A stretch of 64,000 nucleotides of DNA from assembly GCA_900079685.1 (NCBI GenBank), contig LT599019.1:592868-656867 (forward strand), written 5' to 3'. The position numbers and the translations under genes are program-made. Under the pieces are notes generated by a model. The model was not told where the DNA came from and did no database searches. It saw nothing but the letters and a program-made list of their open reading frames with translations. Below, piece after piece: positions 57 to 38,592 of this stretch (position 1 is its first letter; each line of letters begins with the position of its first letter). Source of the stretch: an uncultured delta proteobacterium (GTDB taxonomy: Bacteria; Desulfobacterota; Desulfovibrionia; Desulfovibrionales; Desulfovibrionaceae).

Positions 57-1091
57 CTATATCGCGCCCGAAGCCTTTTTCTCCGCCACGAACGCCTTGT
101 AATAGGCGTAATTCTCTTTAACCAGCGCGGCGGGGTCAAGCTCATAAGGACAGCGGGAGGCGCAATCCCCGCAGTTGATACACTCGTCCGCCTTGGCGTT
201 TTTCGCCTGGGCTTCGGGAGTAATTTCTTTGCGCCAGACGGCGCGTTCCAGGAACAACCGCATGCGGGCGAGCATGGGAATGGGGATGCCGACCGGGCAC
301 GGCAGGCAATAGCCGCACCCGCGGCAGAAATTCTTGCCGAGCGCGTTCCGCTCTTCTTCCACCTGGGCCTGCATGGTTGCATCCCAGGCGGGCGGGTTGG
401 CTTCCAGGGCAAGGAACTCCTCAAGCTCTTCCATCCGCTGGATACCCCAGATGGGCACCACGTTCTCGAACCGGCGCATGAAGGCGTACGCCGCCGGAAT
501 ATGGCGCACGAGCCCGCCGGAAAGGGCTTTCATGGCGATAAACCCGATATCGAGGTCCTTGCACCGGCGGGCGAAATCCTGCTCTTTCAGCGAGGACAGG
601 AGACTGAACGGGTACTGGATCACTTCGTACAGGCCGGAATCCGCGGCTGCCTCCGCCCGCTCGATGCGGTGGTTCGTCAGCCCGATGTGGCGGATTTTGC
701 CCGCTTGCTTCGCGGCGAGCATGGCCTCGTACCGGCCTGTTCCGTCATCGGGCACGGGCACGGTGGACGGGTTGTGGATCTGGAGCACATCAATATAGTC
801 TGTCTTGAGCTTTGCAAGGCTGGTATCGATGTCCTTTGCCACTTCCGCGCCCGTTCCGCTCATGCTTTTGGTGGCGATGATGATGTTATCCCGCAGGCCG
901 GCGAAGGCCACGCCCATTTTTTCCTCGCTGTCCGAATAGACGTGGGCCGTATCGTAAAAGTTGACGCCCGCCTCAAGGGCGCGGCGCAAAATGCGGACCG
1001 CCTCGTCGAGGGAAATGCGCTGGATGGGCAATGCGCCGAAGCTGACGCCGGTGACCTGCAAACCGGTACTGCCGAGCCGGATGGTTCTCAT
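57..1091 (-). CDS. Aldo/keto reductase with C-terminal ferredoxin-like 4Fe-4S domain
   Basis: Protein of 344 residues. The N-terminal ~260 residues form an aldo/keto reductase barrel with the DTAHVY motif carrying the catalytic Tyr and an IHNP strand. The C-terminus has two cysteine clusters, CRGCGYCLPCP near residue 256 and CINCGDCASRCP near 303, which fit 4Fe-4S binding. Proteins with this layout are usually annotated as ferredoxin-linked or NADPH oxidoreductases of unknown substrate in anaerobes. The ATG is preceded by AAGGAG at good spacing. It is divergent from the radical SAM gene at 1326. The stop lies 57 bp from the window edge, next to a GC-rich palindrome. Family is firm; substrate is unknown. 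Confidence 0.9.
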   Translation of the reverse strand: MRTIRLGSTGLQVTGVSFGALPIQRISLDEAVRILRRALEAGVNFYDTAHVYSDSEEKMGVAFAGLRDNIIIATKSMSGTGAEVAKDIDTSLAKLKTDYIDVLQIHNPSTVPVPDDGTGRYEAMLAAKQAGKIRHIGLTNHRIERAEAAADSGLYEVIQYPFSLLSSLKEQDFARRCKDLDIGFIAMKALSGGLVRHIPAAYAFMRRFENVVPIWGIQRMEELEEFLALEANPPAWDATMQAQVEEERNALGKNFCRGCGYCLPCPVGIPIPMLARMRLFLERAVWRKEITPEAQAKNAKADECINCGDCASRCPYELDPAALVKENYAYYKAFVAEKKASGAI

Positions 1092-7144: not shown

Positions 7145-7534
7145 TTAGACCCGGCGCCGCTTGGGCGGGCGGCATCCGTTATGCGGAATGGGGGTAACGT
7201 CCCGGATGAAAGCCACGCGGAAACCGGCCTGGTTCACGGCACGCATGGCGGACTCACGGCCGGTGCCGGGACCCTGCACATAAATGCCGACGGTGCGCAT
7301 GCCGTTTTCCTGTGCGCGGCGGGCAGCCTGCTCGGCGGCAACCTGTGCGGCAAAGGGCGTCGACTTACGCGAGCCCTTGAAGCCGGCCTGGCCGGCGGAA
7401 GCCCAGGAGACCGCGTTACCGCGGGTATCGGTAAAGGTGATGATCGTATTGTTGAAGGAGGCCTGAATATGCACCAGCCCCACAGGAACGTTTTTCTTCT
7501 CGCGTTTCTTAACAGCACGTTTGGCTTTAGCCAT
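7145..7534 (-). CDS. rpsK: 30S ribosomal protein S11
   Basis: 129 residues from the ATG at 7534 ([14 protein letters not shown]), the standard start. [24 protein letters not shown] and the C-terminal [18 protein letters not shown] are diagnostic of S11, which lines the platform of the small subunit near the mRNA exit. It lies 87 bp downstream of rpsM. Confidence 0.98.
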
Positions 7535-7621
7535 TGTCACACTCTCGCTTGAATGGTTTCTCGGGTCCCGCGTGTGCGGCCGCCCCACGCAATACGGCGG
7601 GCGCGGCAATCACCACGGAGA

Positions 7622-7990
7622 CTATTTTTTCTTGGGCGTCGCGCCTCTGCGCGGGCCTTTGCGGGTGCGCGCGTTGGTATGCGTGCGCTGCCCATGCACC
7701 GGCAGGCCCTTTCTGTGCCTGAGGCCACGGTAGCAGCCGATATCCATAAGCCGCTTGATGTTGCCGGCGACTTCACGACGGAGATCGCCTTCAACTTTAT
7801 GATTTTGTTCGAGTTCTTTACGGATCTCATTGATCTCGTCGGCGGAAAGGTCGTCGATGCCGCGCGTCCAATCAACGCCGGTCACGTCAAGAATCTTCAG
7901 CGCGGTAGCCCGGCCGACGCCATAAATATACGTCAGGGCGATATCCGCGCGCTTGCCTCTGGGCAGGTCAACTCCAGCGATTCTGGCCAC
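7622..7990 (-). CDS. rpsM: 30S ribosomal protein S13
   Basis: 122 residues starting [19 protein letters not shown]. The helix-two-turn-helix segment and the basic tail [20 protein letters not shown] are typical of S13, which sits in the head of the 30S subunit and contacts the P-site tRNA. The start codon is GTG, with AGGAGTTACAC upstream. It follows rpmJ by 18 bp. Confidence 0.98.
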
Positions 7991-8008
7991 GTGTAACTCC
8001 TGGTTCGC

Positions 8009-8122
8009 TTAGCCCTGGCGCTGCTTATGCCGGGGGTTTTCGCAGATTACCCGCAAGACGCCAAAGCGACGGATCACTTTGCATTTCGGGCACAATTTCT
8101 TAACGGAAGGCCTGACTTTCAT
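8009..8122 (-). CDS. rpmJ: 50S ribosomal protein L36
   Basis: 37 residues starting [15 protein letters not shown] and ending [10 protein letters not shown]. The CPKC pair together with the later Cys and His form the zinc site of the C-type L36. It lies in its usual place between map and rpsM. GAGGGAGTAGACC precedes the ATG. Confidence 0.96.
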
Positions 8123-8294
8123 GGTCTACTCCCTCTCCATATACTCTATGCCTGAACGTCAGGCTGATAATGCCGGCATATCCGGCTGCAATGCATCTGT
8201 TCGAAACCCTGGAATTATCGCGATTTTTTCGCAAAACTCCAGATTTGAGCACAGCACTATAGCGCCGAAGATAATCATCGTCAAGCGATGATTA
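8123..8294 (-). promoter_or_regulatory. Spacer between map and rpmJ with a perfect 11-bp palindromic hairpin
   Basis: Positions 8270-8280 pair perfectly with 8286-8296 around a 5-nt loop, and the hairpin overlaps the map stop codon. No T-run follows on the minus strand, so it is not a standard terminator; it may stabilise the mRNA end or act as an operator. The rest of the spacer is AT-rich, and rpmJ-rpsM-rpsK may have their own promoter here, though I could not fix one. Confidence 0.45.
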
Positions 8295-35573: not shown

Positions 35574-37832
35574 ATGCTCGCAGAAATCATAAAAAGAGAC
35601 GGCAAAACCGTTCCTTTTGACTCCACGAAAATTCTGAACGCCATCAGCAAAGCCAATAAAGCCGTCGGCGAAGAGGAAATGACCACCACGGACCTCCTCT
35701 TCGTCACGGAAAAGGTCTGCAAGCGCCTGGAGTCCGAGGGCCTCAAGCACGTCGAGGAAATCCAGGACGTGGTGGAGGATTCCCTCATCCGGTTCGGGTA
35801 CGCCAGGACCGCCAAGGCCTACATCCTGTACCGGGCAGAGCATGCGAAGATCCGCAACGCGGAATCGTACCTGATGGACATATACAAAAGGCTCACCTGG
35901 TCCTCGGCCGGCGAGGAAGACATCAAGCGGGAAAACGCCAATATCGACGGCGATACCGCCATGGGCACCATGCTCAAGTACGGCTCCGAGGGCTCGAAGT
36001 TCTTCATCGACAACCACGTTCTGCCCAAGGACGCCTCCGCCGCGCACGCCAACGGCGATATCCACATCCACGACAAAGATTTTTACATGCTCACCCAGAC
36101 CTGCTGCCAGATCGACCTGATCCCGCTGTTCAGGAACGGGTTTTCCACGGGCCACGGCTATTTGCGCGAGCCCAATTCCATCGAGAGTTATTCCGCCCTC
36201 GGCTGCATCGCCATCCAGGCCAACCAGAACGAGATGCACGGCGGCCAGAGCGTTCCCAATTTCGATTACGCCATGGCCCAGGGCGTGATTAAAACGTTCC
36301 GCAAGGAATACGGCAAAGCCTTTACCACTTACGTGCAGATCAGCCAGAACTGGGATGCCGAAGCCGCCCGCGACACTGCGGACGCCATGCGCGTGGACGT
36401 CGGTTCCGACATCCGCCTGGGCACGGTTGCGACATACGGCAAAGCCCTGGTGCAGTCCGCCTTGCCCGGCCTGAAGGACCTTGCGCAAAAGGCCCACGAA
36501 TACGCCGTCAAAGAAGCCACGGCCGCCACGGACCGCCGCGTGTACCAGTCCATGGAAGCGTTCATCCACAACCTGAACACCATGAACTCGCGGGCCGGGG
36601 CCCAGGTGCCCTTCAGCTCCATCAACTACGGAACCGATACCTCCGCCGAAGGCAGGATGGTGACCCGCAATATCCTGCTCGCGACACAGGCCGGCCTCGG
36701 CAGCGGGGAAACCTCCATTTTCCCGGTCCAGATTTTCAAGGTCAAAGCCGGAGTGAACTACAACCCCGCGGACCCGAACTACGACCTGTTCACCCTTGCC
36801 ATGGCCACCTCCGCCAAGCGGCTGTTCCCCAACTTCAGCTTCCTGGACGCGCCGTTCAACCTGCCCTACTACAAGCCCGGCGATTACAACACCGAAGTCG
36901 GCTACATGGGCTGCCGCACCCGGGTTCTGGGCAACGCGTACGACCCGGACCGCCAGGTCACCTGCGGCAGGGGCAACCTCAGCTTCACCTCGGTCAACCT
37001 CCCCCGCCTGGGCATCGAAGCCGGTGGAAATATAGAGAAATTCTATACGCTGCTGGACGACAGGATCGACCTGGTCTTCCGCCAGTTGCTGCACCGGCTG
37101 AAAATCCAGAGCGCGAAGAAGGTGCGCAATTATCCCTTCCTCATGGGCGAAGGCATCTGGATCGATTCCAAAACACTCTCCTGGGACGATACCATTGAAG
37201 ACGTGCTCAAGCACGGCACGTTGACCATAGGGTTCATCGGCCTGGCCGAAACCCTGGTGGCGCTTATCGGCAAGCACCATGGAGAGAGCGAGGAAGCGCA
37301 AAAACTCGGCCTTGAAATCGTGGGGCACATCCGCAAACGGGCGGACGAAAAGTCGGCGGAAACCAAACTGAATTTTTCCGTCATCGCCACCCCGGCCGAG
37401 GGACTCAGCGGCCGCTTCGTCGCCATTGACCGCAAGCGCTACGGCGTTCTGCCGGGCGTCACGGACAGGGAATACTACACCAACTCCTTCCACGTGCCGG
37501 TGTTTTTCCCGATCCAGGCCTTTAAGAAAATCCGGATTGAGGCGCCCTACCACGCCCTCACCAACGCGGGCCACATCACCTACGTGGAACTTGACGGGGA
37601 CGCCAGCAAGAACCCCGAAGCGTTTGAGGCCGTCATCCGGTACATGCACGACCAGGGCGTGGGCTACGGCTCCATCAACCACCCGCTCGACCGCGACCCG
37701 GTCTGCGGCTACGTCGGCGTCATACACGACGTGTGCCCGCGCTGCGGCAGGCGGGAAGGGGAACCCATCAGCAGGGAAAAGCTGGAGGAACTGCGCCGCA
37801 AACATCCCGGCGTGCCCTCCTGGGAAGAATAA
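35574..37832 (+). CDS. nrdD: Anaerobic (class III) ribonucleoside-triphosphate reductase, catalytic part lacking the glycyl radical domain
   Basis: 752 residues from ATG 35574 (AGAGAAGGG upstream). The N-terminal ATP-cone is ILKRDGKTV-like (IIKRDGKTVPFDSTKILNAI). The barrel has HIHDKDFYMLTQTCCQIDL, an ALGCIAIQANQNEMHGGQS segment and GYMGCRTRVLG with the likely thiyl Cys. The protein ends soon after a Cys-rich segment (CGYVG and CPRCG) that resembles the zinc site. The usual C-terminal RxxGY glycyl radical loop is missing; it is encoded by the next ORF at 37932. It supplies dNTPs anaerobically. See findings. Confidence 0.93.
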   Translation: MLAEIIKRDGKTVPFDSTKILNAISKANKAVGEEEMTTTDLLFVTEKVCKRLESEGLKHVEEIQDVVEDSLIRFGYARTAKAYILYRAEHAKIRNAESYLMDIYKRLTWSSAGEEDIKRENANIDGDTAMGTMLKYGSEGSKFFIDNHVLPKDASAAHANGDIHIHDKDFYMLTQTCCQIDLIPLFRNGFSTGHGYLREPNSIESYSALGCIAIQANQNEMHGGQSVPNFDYAMAQGVIKTFRKEYGKAFTTYVQISQNWDAEAARDTADAMRVDVGSDIRLGTVATYGKALVQSALPGLKDLAQKAHEYAVKEATAATDRRVYQSMEAFIHNLNTMNSRAGAQVPFSSINYGTDTSAEGRMVTRNILLATQAGLGSGETSIFPVQIFKVKAGVNYNPADPNYDLFTLAMATSAKRLFPNFSFLDAPFNLPYYKPGDYNTEVGYMGCRTRVLGNAYDPDRQVTCGRGNLSFTSVNLPRLGIEAGGNIEKFYTLLDDRIDLVFRQLLHRLKIQSAKKVRNYPFLMGEGIWIDSKTLSWDDTIEDVLKHGTLTIGFIGLAETLVALIGKHHGESEEAQKLGLEIVGHIRKRADEKSAETKLNFSVIATPAEGLSGRFVAIDRKRYGVLPGVTDREYYTNSFHVPVFFPIQAFKKIRIEAPYHALTNAGHITYVELDGDASKNPEAFEAVIRYMHDQGVGYGSINHPLDRDPVCGYVGVIHDVCPRCGRREGEPISREKLEELRRKHPGVPSWEE

Positions 37833-37931
37833 ACGGTACGCGCGGCAAACGCGCAACGGCTCTTGATAGGCAACGTCCCGCGCATCCGGGGCGACGGTTA
37901 CAGATGCAGTATCACCTAAGGAGAACGGAAT

Positions 37932-38108
37932 ATGTTGCTTGACCCGAGACGGAACAATGAAAAAGTGGAAGCCGCCGCGCGCAACGTGGGCGCGAACGTC
38001 GGGTTTGAACGCACCCGCCGCATCACCGGGTATCTTGTGGGCACGCTCGACCGTTTCAACAACGCCAAACGCGCCGAGGAAAAAGACCGGGTCAGGCACG
38101 GTGCCTGA
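37932..38108 (+). CDS. Stand-alone glycyl radical domain of class III ribonucleotide reductase
   Basis: 58 residues. Residues 25-57 read FERTRRITGYLVGTLDRFN and an Ala/Lys/Glu-rich end, which is the C-terminal glycyl radical segment of NrdD, with Gly33 in RRITGY as the radical site. It is separated from the nrdD stop by 99 bp and has its own TAAGGAGA at 8-nt spacing before the ATG. Its stop overlaps the GTG start of nrdG by 8 nt. The order (catalytic subunit, radical domain, activase) is what a three-part class III enzyme would need. It plausibly docks onto NrdD, like GrcA on damaged pyruvate formate-lyase. Confidence 0.88.
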   Translation: MLLDPRRNNEKVEAAARNVGANVGFERTRRITGYLVGTLDRFNNAKRAEEKDRVRHGA

Positions 38109-38592
38109 GATCAGGCTCGGCGGCATCCAGGAAGAATCCATCGTTGACGGGCCGGGGCTGCGCTTTGTCGTCTTCACCCAAGGCTGCCCGCACCGCTGCG
38201 CGGGGTGCCATAACCCCGAAACCCACGACCCGGCGGGCGGCTTTACAATGGATACGCGGGTTCTTCTGGAACGGTTCGGGCAGAACCCGCTCCTGTCCGG
38301 AATAACCTTTTCCGGCGGCGAGCCGTTCATGCAGGCGGCCCCCCTGGCCGCGATAGCGCGGGAAGTCAAAACCGGCGGCAAAACCGTGGTGGTATACACG
38401 GGCTATACTCTGGAAGCGCTCCTCGCCCGCGCCGACACCGCCGCCCGCGACCTCCTGGCCCTGACGGACCTCTTGATCGACGGGCCGTATGTCGAATCCC
38501 TGCGGGACCTTGATCTGACCTTCAGGGGAAGTTCCAACCAGCGCATTCTGGATACCGGCGCCATTGCCCGCGCCATGCGCATCCCGGCCTGA
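38101..38592 (+). CDS. nrdG: Anaerobic ribonucleotide reductase activating protein (radical SAM)
   Basis: 163 residues from GTG 38101 (MPEIRLGGIQEESIVDGPG). CPHRCAGCHNPETHD holds the CxxxCxxC cluster motif and TFSGGEPFMQ the SAM-binding GGE. LTDLLIDGPYVESLRD and FRGSSNQRILD are typical of NrdG. It generates the glycyl radical; here on a separate small protein. The start overlaps the upstream ORF, so translation is coupled. Confidence 0.93.
   Translation: MPEIRLGGIQEESIVDGPGLRFVVFTQGCPHRCAGCHNPETHDPAGGFTMDTRVLLERFGQNPLLSGITFSGGEPFMQAAPLAAIAREVKTGGKTVVVYTGYTLEALLARADTAARDLLALTDLLIDGPYVESLRDLDLTFRGSSNQRILDTGAIARAMRIPA

Follow-up and report, generated by a model that had tools for sequence, protein, structure and literature searches.

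A class III ribonucleotide reductase with its glycyl radical domain on a separate gene, and stand-alone copies of that domain in genomes and phages

In a 64,000-nucleotide (nt) stretch of contig LT599019.1 from an uncultured member of the Desulfovibrionaceae (the window), the catalytic subunit of a class III ribonucleotide reductase (RNR), NrdD, ends before the glycyl radical loop, and this loop is encoded by a small open reading frame (ORF) between nrdD and the activase gene nrdG. The gene anatomy, conservation, recurrence and radical motif of the split NrdD are described here, together with the modelled docking of the small protein, the phage surroundings of some stand-alone copies and the matching of such copies to their hosts. 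Sequence comparison and modelling indicate that the enzyme very probably consists of three gene products, with the radical domain acting in trans. An earlier note on this DNA had proposed such a three-part system of catalytic subunit, separable radical domain and activase. Comparative genomics and structure prediction back that proposal, and the recurrent splitting, the phage-borne copies and the extra copies beside fused NrdD go beyond it.

Anatomy of the split locus

The window NrdD belongs to class III by its match to the full-length NrdD model NF005497 (PRK07111; 1059.7 bits, cut-off 764), by its finger-loop and zinc-finger cysteines and by the adjoining NrdG activase (TIGR02491, 138.2 bits, cut-off 126.1); against Pfam NRDD it scores 614.3 bits (cut-off 26.2). 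The finger-loop Cys447 is presumably the cysteine that carries the thiyl radical, and the zinc-finger cysteines are taken to bind metal as in the rest of the family. The feature missing from the chain is the radical glycine loop: the match to NF005497 covers profile positions 2–717 of 746 without the RxxGY loop, which is found on the separate 58-residue ORF. The small protein covers positions 710–744, the end of the profile beyond NrdD. It lies above the family cut-off for Pfam NRDD (E = 1.4e-7) and matches NF011292 with E = 1.2e-11, far below the cut-off of that full-length model.

The radical glycine of the single-chain P. copri NrdD is Gly711 (PMC11226230; this and the other papers cited were drawn on in excerpt), and the chain numbering carries an offset of 4, chain residue 5 being the first Met. 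Residues 312–730 of the window NrdD align to 281–708 of the P. copri protein and residues 25–56 of the small protein to 707–738. Together, the two window proteins thus cover successive parts of one P. copri chain. The earlier note had NrdD stopping just past its Cys-rich segment and lacking the RxxGY loop; both points hold, with the qualification that a tail of 26 residues still follows CPRCGR. Its account of a 99-bp gap followed by a 58-codon ORF with its own ribosome-binding site, which encodes the absent loop (RRITGY, Gly33 at the radical position) and overlaps nrdG by 8 nt, agrees with the sequence and with the profile positions covered (Table 1).

Table 1. Features of the split nrdD locus, in positions of the 64,000-nt window; all three genes lie on the + strand
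Feature	Position	Strand	Basis
nrdD, catalytic subunit without glycyl radical loop, 752 residues; ATP-cone, barrel, finger-loop Cys447, zinc motif	35574..37832	+	profile matches, alignment A5, P. copri alignment
Cys447 codon, in MGCRTRV	36912..36914	+	invariant column C447 in alignment A5, 63 rows
Zinc-finger segment H703...C711...C721PRC724GR, last part in common with fused NrdD	37680..37751	+	H703, C711, C721 and C724 invariant in A5, 63 rows
Tail of 26 residues beyond CPRCGR; fused NrdD has a linker of 6–8 residues there	37752..37829	+	tail/linker measurement
Spacer of 99 nt past the nrdD stop, with another in-frame TAA and ribosome-binding site AAGGAG (37918–37923)	37833..37931	+	
Small stand-alone glycyl radical domain protein, 58 residues, ATG start	37932..38108	+	profile matches, relatives, P. 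copri alignment
Gly33 codon, equivalent of radical glycine Gly711 of P. copri NrdD	38028..38030	+	alignment (chain residue 715, numbering offset 4)
nrdG, radical S-adenosylmethionine activase, GTG start, 163 residues; 8-nt overlap with small ORF	38101..38592	+	TIGR02491 above cut-off

Recurrence and separate translation of the split

Among 59 genomes, comprising the window's own and those of relatives, the small protein is present in 9, and a PRK07111-type NrdD above the curated cut-off is found in exactly the same 9. Most of the others carry a lower-scoring NrdD whose match extends, within a single long frame, to about position 741 of the profile, i.e., a fused form. The small protein of the congener G001 is 84% identical to that of the window. 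Of 297 genomes sampled more widely from the window's class, 93 match the small-protein profile; among the places listed for this class, only that in G532 lies in a long frame (801 residues), the others being in frames of at most 348 residues. G532 shares the genus code g26 with the split genomes G026 and G440, so that both states occur within one genus.

A scan of the genome collection gave at least 586 confirmed relatives, of which the best 80 loci were fetched, a set biased to split forms because the query was derived from one. These 80 loci hold 81 radical domains. NrdD lies directly upstream as a separate ORF for 60 domains (59 loci), 8 domains are fused, 9 have no NrdD despite at least 2.5 kb of upstream sequence seen and 4 have a short upstream; NrdG follows within 350 nt in 52 of the 59 split loci. 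The record names of the split loci, most of which are metagenome-assembled, include Desulfovibrio, Lachnospiraceae, Oscillospiraceae, Mogibacterium, Butyricicoccus, Bacilli/Erysipelotrichaceae, Fibrobacter and a Campylobacterota contig. A search for the small protein next to nrdD in Desulfovibrionaceae and other anaerobes, as the earlier note had suggested, thus found the arrangement. That note had also named an assembly error, exposed by continuous homologues, as the outcome that would undo its reading; fused homologues do exist, yet split genomes recur across several phyla, so the split is not an assembly error. An oddity of a single genome is likewise excluded by the 59 split loci among the best 80 and by the tree described below. 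The profile matches, the identity to the G001 protein, the arrangement in 59 of 80 loci and the low ratio of non-synonymous to synonymous differences (pN/pS) confirm that the small ORF is more than a chance frame. For the codons of the radical-domain core, the median pN/pS is 0.13 among NrdD-linked copies and 0.18–0.20 once stand-alone copies are included.

In evenly drawn samples, the split form is a minority outside the window's class. The Clostridia draw gave 59 matches in 196 genomes, with four split: G104 (the draw centre), G105, G237 and G271, of which G105 and G237 coincide with loci already in the fetched set. The remaining Clostridia matches lie in long frames, except for extra short frames (G185, G201, G248) and for G149 and G191, in which NrdD is broken or cut off by a contig end. 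The Bacilli draw gave 61 matches in 198 genomes, and 8 of these, the draw centre included, have split-type short frames, all 8 beside NrdD.

Several loci show other arrangements. Between NrdD and NrdG, a Clostridia contig (L178, 2932–3538) has two radical-domain ORFs in tandem. In an Anaerostipes metagenome-assembled genome (L175, 5778–6120), a remnant of the NrdD C terminus is followed by a radical domain and NrdG, with no barrel upstream, and in one of Desulfovibrio (L139, 4427–5057) a radical domain and NrdG lie downstream of a MetE-like frame, no NrdD being found in the locus. In G149 (L223, 2251–4423), a class III nrdD in several frames lies beside an nrdG frame, and a second radical domain is present in a frame of 776 residues.

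The distribution of the two states was followed on an unrooted tree of 80 split and 41 fused NrdD rows (121 in all; LG+G4 without a mixture), cut at the zinc motif and with the columns of the trait itself taken out. It shows 10 changes between split and fused, at least 5 of them forced by starred branches, against a shuffled mean of 34.6. The split label in this tree includes the viral rows L060, L071 and L116, the radical domain being ∼2 kb away in two of them, and long-branch warnings attach to L274, L060, L259, L051, L157 and L116, as well as to the joining of L060 with L274. A 58-row tree built with a mixture model, from which the warned rows were omitted except L259, has 9 changes. A single split clade was rejected at a cost of 652.65 log units (approximately unbiased test, p-AU 5.57e-5), as calculated for 58 rows on a quick tree with a group defined by the trait. 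The state has changed repeatedly, about 10 times, by splitting, re-fusion or both. The window's family itself forms two separate split lineages on the 121-row tree: the window's own, near Lachnospiraceae, and another around G007, G012 and G389, near the fused G532.

The window nrdD and its small ORF share a frame, and a fused NrdD could in principle still arise if ribosomes read through the stop codon, shift frame or bypass the gap. Frame 0 is indeed the commonest relation in the 59 split genome loci (26, against 20 in frame 1 and 13 in frame 2), but the frames differ in the other 33. In the window, the spacer is opened by the nrdD TAA stop and contains a second in-frame TAA, and AAGGAG is located 8 nt 5′ of the small-ORF ATG. 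A start with a Shine-Dalgarno-like site past the NrdD stop is present in 58 of 59 small ORFs. In a separate count, 45 of 57 stand-alone copies and all 41 host copies have a start with such a site, compared with 18% of random start triplets; both counts take the best of several in-frame starts, so that the control is unmatched. In addition, many stand-alone copies lie far from any NrdD, and the split NrdD tail beyond the zinc motif is 17–52 residues long (80 rows), where fused NrdD has a linker of 6–8 residues from CPxCGR to the radical loop (17 of 17 measurements on fetched loci; the linker of G191 is longer). Production of a fused chain is very unlikely on this evidence. No motif is claimed for the split tails, because only 25 of 80 fit the pattern tried.

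The split NrdD could also be a decaying pseudogene, with the fused paralogue doing the work. The genome does carry a second, fused NrdD and another RNR, and broken copies exist elsewhere (the remnant in L175 and the multi-frame copy in L223). Decay is nevertheless extremely unlikely for a full-length barrel that keeps the invariant residues of the family and a small ORF with low pN/pS, in a state that recurs in several phyla and accounts for all but one of the listed places, in short frames, among the 93 of 297 matching genomes of the class.

Stand-alone copies of the radical domain

Relatives of the small protein are also frequent in viral sequences. A scan of IMG/VR gave 274 confirmed relatives, and the best 80 of the 274 loci were read. 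In 59 of these, the radical domain is a separate ORF in a locus that lacks NrdD and shows at least 2.5 kb of upstream sequence; another 8 agree with this but show less upstream sequence. NrdD lies elsewhere in the locus for 3 copies and next to the domain for 1, and 9 copies are fused. The 71 non-fused viral copies lie in open frames of 44–216 residues and give 62 distinct matched stretches, so some of the viral contigs are near-copies. The radical motif RR[IV]TGY is kept in 69 of the 71 (the exceptions being one TGF and one RWITGY) and in all 57 stand-alone copies listed from 31 genomes.

Many genomes of the window's class hold 2–7 radical-domain copies. Among 89 proteins from 16 loci around the extra copies, the commonest families are integrase, terminase large subunit, baseplate and tail, with portal also present. 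Proteins matched singly include a portal protein (L280), a tape measure protein (L282), a head-tail adaptor (L284), a baseplate hub (L292) and a terminase (L294); 5 of the 10 neighbors tested in this way had no family match. No dedicated PHROG, NCBIfam or Pfam family was found for the window's small protein or for the five, four and four other members tested. The present assignment would name a common class of phage genes, unnamed in these libraries, and give it a likely job in host takeover. One chromosome (G393:C1:967000-986000 and 2808000-2826000; L282, L283) has the same stand-alone gene twice, perhaps in two near-identical prophages. In a prophage-like block near another stand-alone radical domain (L053, G034:C8, ∼7422–8201), a frame reads like phosphoadenosine-phosphosulfate reductase, a family matched by 2 of the 89 neighbor proteins.

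The relation of stand-alone copies to their hosts was evaluated in 28 genomes for which an NrdD-linked copy and one or more fetched stand-alone copies were available. The set comprises 50 copies, after removal of one duplicate and of six copies from three genomes without a host copy seen; it holds part of the copies of some genomes (e.g., 4 of 7 in G486), and a prophage location was shown for some only. Two motifs, picked after inspection of the sequences, were scored: the residue after F-x-R (T, V or I, with a one-residue insertion as a further class) and a motif in the tail. Of the 50 copies, 43 share the class after F-x-R with their own host (against a shuffled mean of 24.0; p = 5e-5) and 44 share its tail motif (shuffled 25.0, p = 1.5e-4). 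Identity over the whole core is a weak measure of host matching: its mean is 0.896 to the own host copy and 0.861 to those of other hosts, and the own host is best or tied in 20 of 51. Stand-alone copies tend to match the NrdD-linked copy of their host.

Phage proteins often inhibit host enzymes, and a stand-alone copy might be a decoy or inhibitor of the host enzyme, or might serve another glycyl radical enzyme. Such a role appears improbable. A decoy would have no need of the glycine, yet the radical motif is kept in the 57 listed copies, and the copies tend to resemble the host's own version. The window's small protein, moreover, gives no match to the Gly_radical family of pyruvate formate-lyase (PF01228) at E up to 1.

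In some Clostridia and Bacilli, extra copies of ∼95 residues occur beside a fused NrdD, and from their sequences they look like spare parts for NrdD. In G201 (L221), the fused NrdD, a 101-residue frame consisting of a short N-domain and a full radical domain, and NrdG follow in a row. Similar short frames are present in G185 and G248, which also have fused NrdD, and 7 of 9 Bacilli genomes with frames of 92–109 residues have a fused NrdD as judged by frame length only. This suggests a path to the split by duplication of the radical domain and subsequent loss from NrdD. An uncharacterized N-domain precedes the radical domain in L169, L173, L187, L221, L222, L224 and L227 and in viral L078, L122 and L136; the first seven have in common a stretch like DGDYVDIxY, and a scan of the N part of two examples against Pfam and NCBIfam gave no domain.

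A radical domain acting in trans

The position of the small protein on NrdD was modelled with AlphaFold2 (AF2) by reading TAA as Q and tying both window proteins with an artificial in-frame linker, which implies no read-through. Two models were obtained, from 39 and 63 alignment rows, with a predicted local distance difference test (pLDDT) of 83.6 and 85.9 and a predicted template modelling score (pTM) of 0.80 and 0.82, respectively. Superposed with VIA-align on P. copri NrdD (8p2s_B), residues 90..843 of model 1 lie on 85..735 (Z 43.0, 3.1 Å, 625 aligned) and 90..842 of model 2 on 85..734 (Z 47.2, 2.5 Å, 622 aligned), the ranges giving first and last residues only. In both models, whose alignments contain fused homologues, the small protein occupies the site of the glycyl radical domain of P. 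copri NrdD; the contact that the earlier note had asked a structure prediction to show is thus supported, though not proven.

These observations are consistent with the following mechanism. NrdD would provide the cone and barrel with the active-site cysteine, together with the zinc finger. The radical glycine would come from the 58-residue protein, a glycyl radical domain made in trans that would slot into the barrel at the site of the C terminus of fused NrdD. Most likely NrdG, translated in overlap with the small ORF, takes a hydrogen from Gly33 of the NrdD-bound small protein, so that the radical would be formed on the small protein; it would then move to the finger-loop cysteine, and the enzyme would turn over. 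Oxygen damage would probably fall on a cheap, swappable part of 58 residues, whose dose probably sets the amount of active enzyme. Phage and prophage copies, fitted to the host NrdD, most likely keep or boost the supply of deoxynucleoside triphosphates (dNTPs) in infection.

Several observations weigh against this interpretation. The window organism has a second, fused NrdD (C1:2611389-2613455) and a class I/II-type RNR large subunit; because of these other RNRs, the split copy may be dispensable. Seven of the 59 split loci have no NrdG within 350 nt, one of them reaching the contig end and six showing none. The modelled docking is partly built in, because of the fused homologues in the alignments and the artificial linker, and pLDDT falls below 50 in the linker and parts of the radical loop (817–829 in model 1, 821–826 in model 2). 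All 7 mismatches in the host comparison fall in genus g47, the only tested genus in which several hosts differ; 12 of 19 copies match there (shuffled 5.5, p = 0.002), the stricter figure because this is where hosts differ. The host match itself could come from capture of the host gene and not from selection for fit.

Oxygen is known to cleave the class III RNR chain at the radical glycine (PMC3019208; PMC12288474). Oxygen damage may have been the driver of the split. Alternatively, the split may serve regulation through the dose of active enzyme, or be neutral, in either case unlinked to oxygen damage. Many of the named carriers are gut anaerobes, and the overlap of the small ORF with nrdG suggests control at the activation step. 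Against this, the cut recurs at one seam beside the known scission site (PMC3019208), and extra copies also occur beside fused NrdD, so a purely regulatory or neutral split seems doubtful, though possible. On balance, we lean towards the radical domain being a freely exchangeable protein cofactor that was split off many times at one seam, spread by phages, provides phages with command of host dNTP synthesis and serves as a repair part beside fused NrdD.

Single-chain class III NrdD/NrdG systems are represented by P. copri (8p23/8p2s), S. thermophilus (9d3x) and phage T4 (1h78-1h7b). The window proteins resemble them in the cone, barrel, finger-loop cysteine, zinc finger, RITGY loop and adjoining NrdG, with 45% identity to 8p2s_B over the VIA alignment, and differ in that the radical loop and C-terminal end are on a separate gene product and the NrdD tail past the zinc motif is longer. 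Spare parts for pyruvate formate-lyase are known from E. coli (YfiD/GrcA) and from phage T4 (Y06I) (PMC8683613); like them, the small glycyl radical protein would act in trans, be carried by host and phage and be activated by the host activase. YfiD/GrcA, however, is a protein of ∼14 kDa that belongs to pyruvate formate-lyase as a repair extra beside the full-length enzyme, whereas the NrdD partner in the split form has no radical domain whatever; the extra copies beside fused NrdD are probably nearer to YfiD in use. The comparison to a GrcA-like spare part made in the earlier note stands for the way of working and not for family membership, as in searches up to E = 1 the small protein matches only NRDD and one family below its cut-off. 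The split class II RNR NrdJa/NrdJb (PMC9669993; PMC4520616) likewise has its catalytic chain distributed over two genes, but generates its radical with adenosylcobalamin. The window NrdD has its best matches in class III, and B12-type models match the cone only (residues ∼2–103).

In the excerpted text of Andorfer et al. (PMC8683613), YfiD and Y06I are the only validated spare parts, and other glycyl radical enzymes are considered as possible users of such parts. No class III RNR with a separate radical domain was found in the excerpts of open-licence PMC papers, and an earlier description elsewhere is possible. By that literature, trans-acting radical domains would here appear for the first time in a glycyl radical enzyme other than pyruvate formate-lyase, and the split NrdD would be a concrete, testable spare-part case for an enzyme that makes DNA precursors in anaerobes. 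Phages would hijack the RNR with a part of ∼50 residues and not a whole enzyme. Experiments on such natural two-piece enzymes could titrate, label, mutate or exchange the radical domain while leaving the barrel untouched.

Phage nrdD genes can be in pieces through introns, inteins, homing endonucleases or unexplained fragmentation (PMC3653736), and have this in common with the split form; as the word glycyl is absent from the excerpted text, no free radical domain is described there. In the isolated Eggerthella phage EL753P1 (L219, 3741–7178), nrdD lacks the radical loop and a radical-domain frame, interrupted in the record, lies downstream. The record has no annotated feature under the matched radical-domain part, and nrdD itself contains an insertion after the finger-loop cysteine that appears intein-like in sequence.

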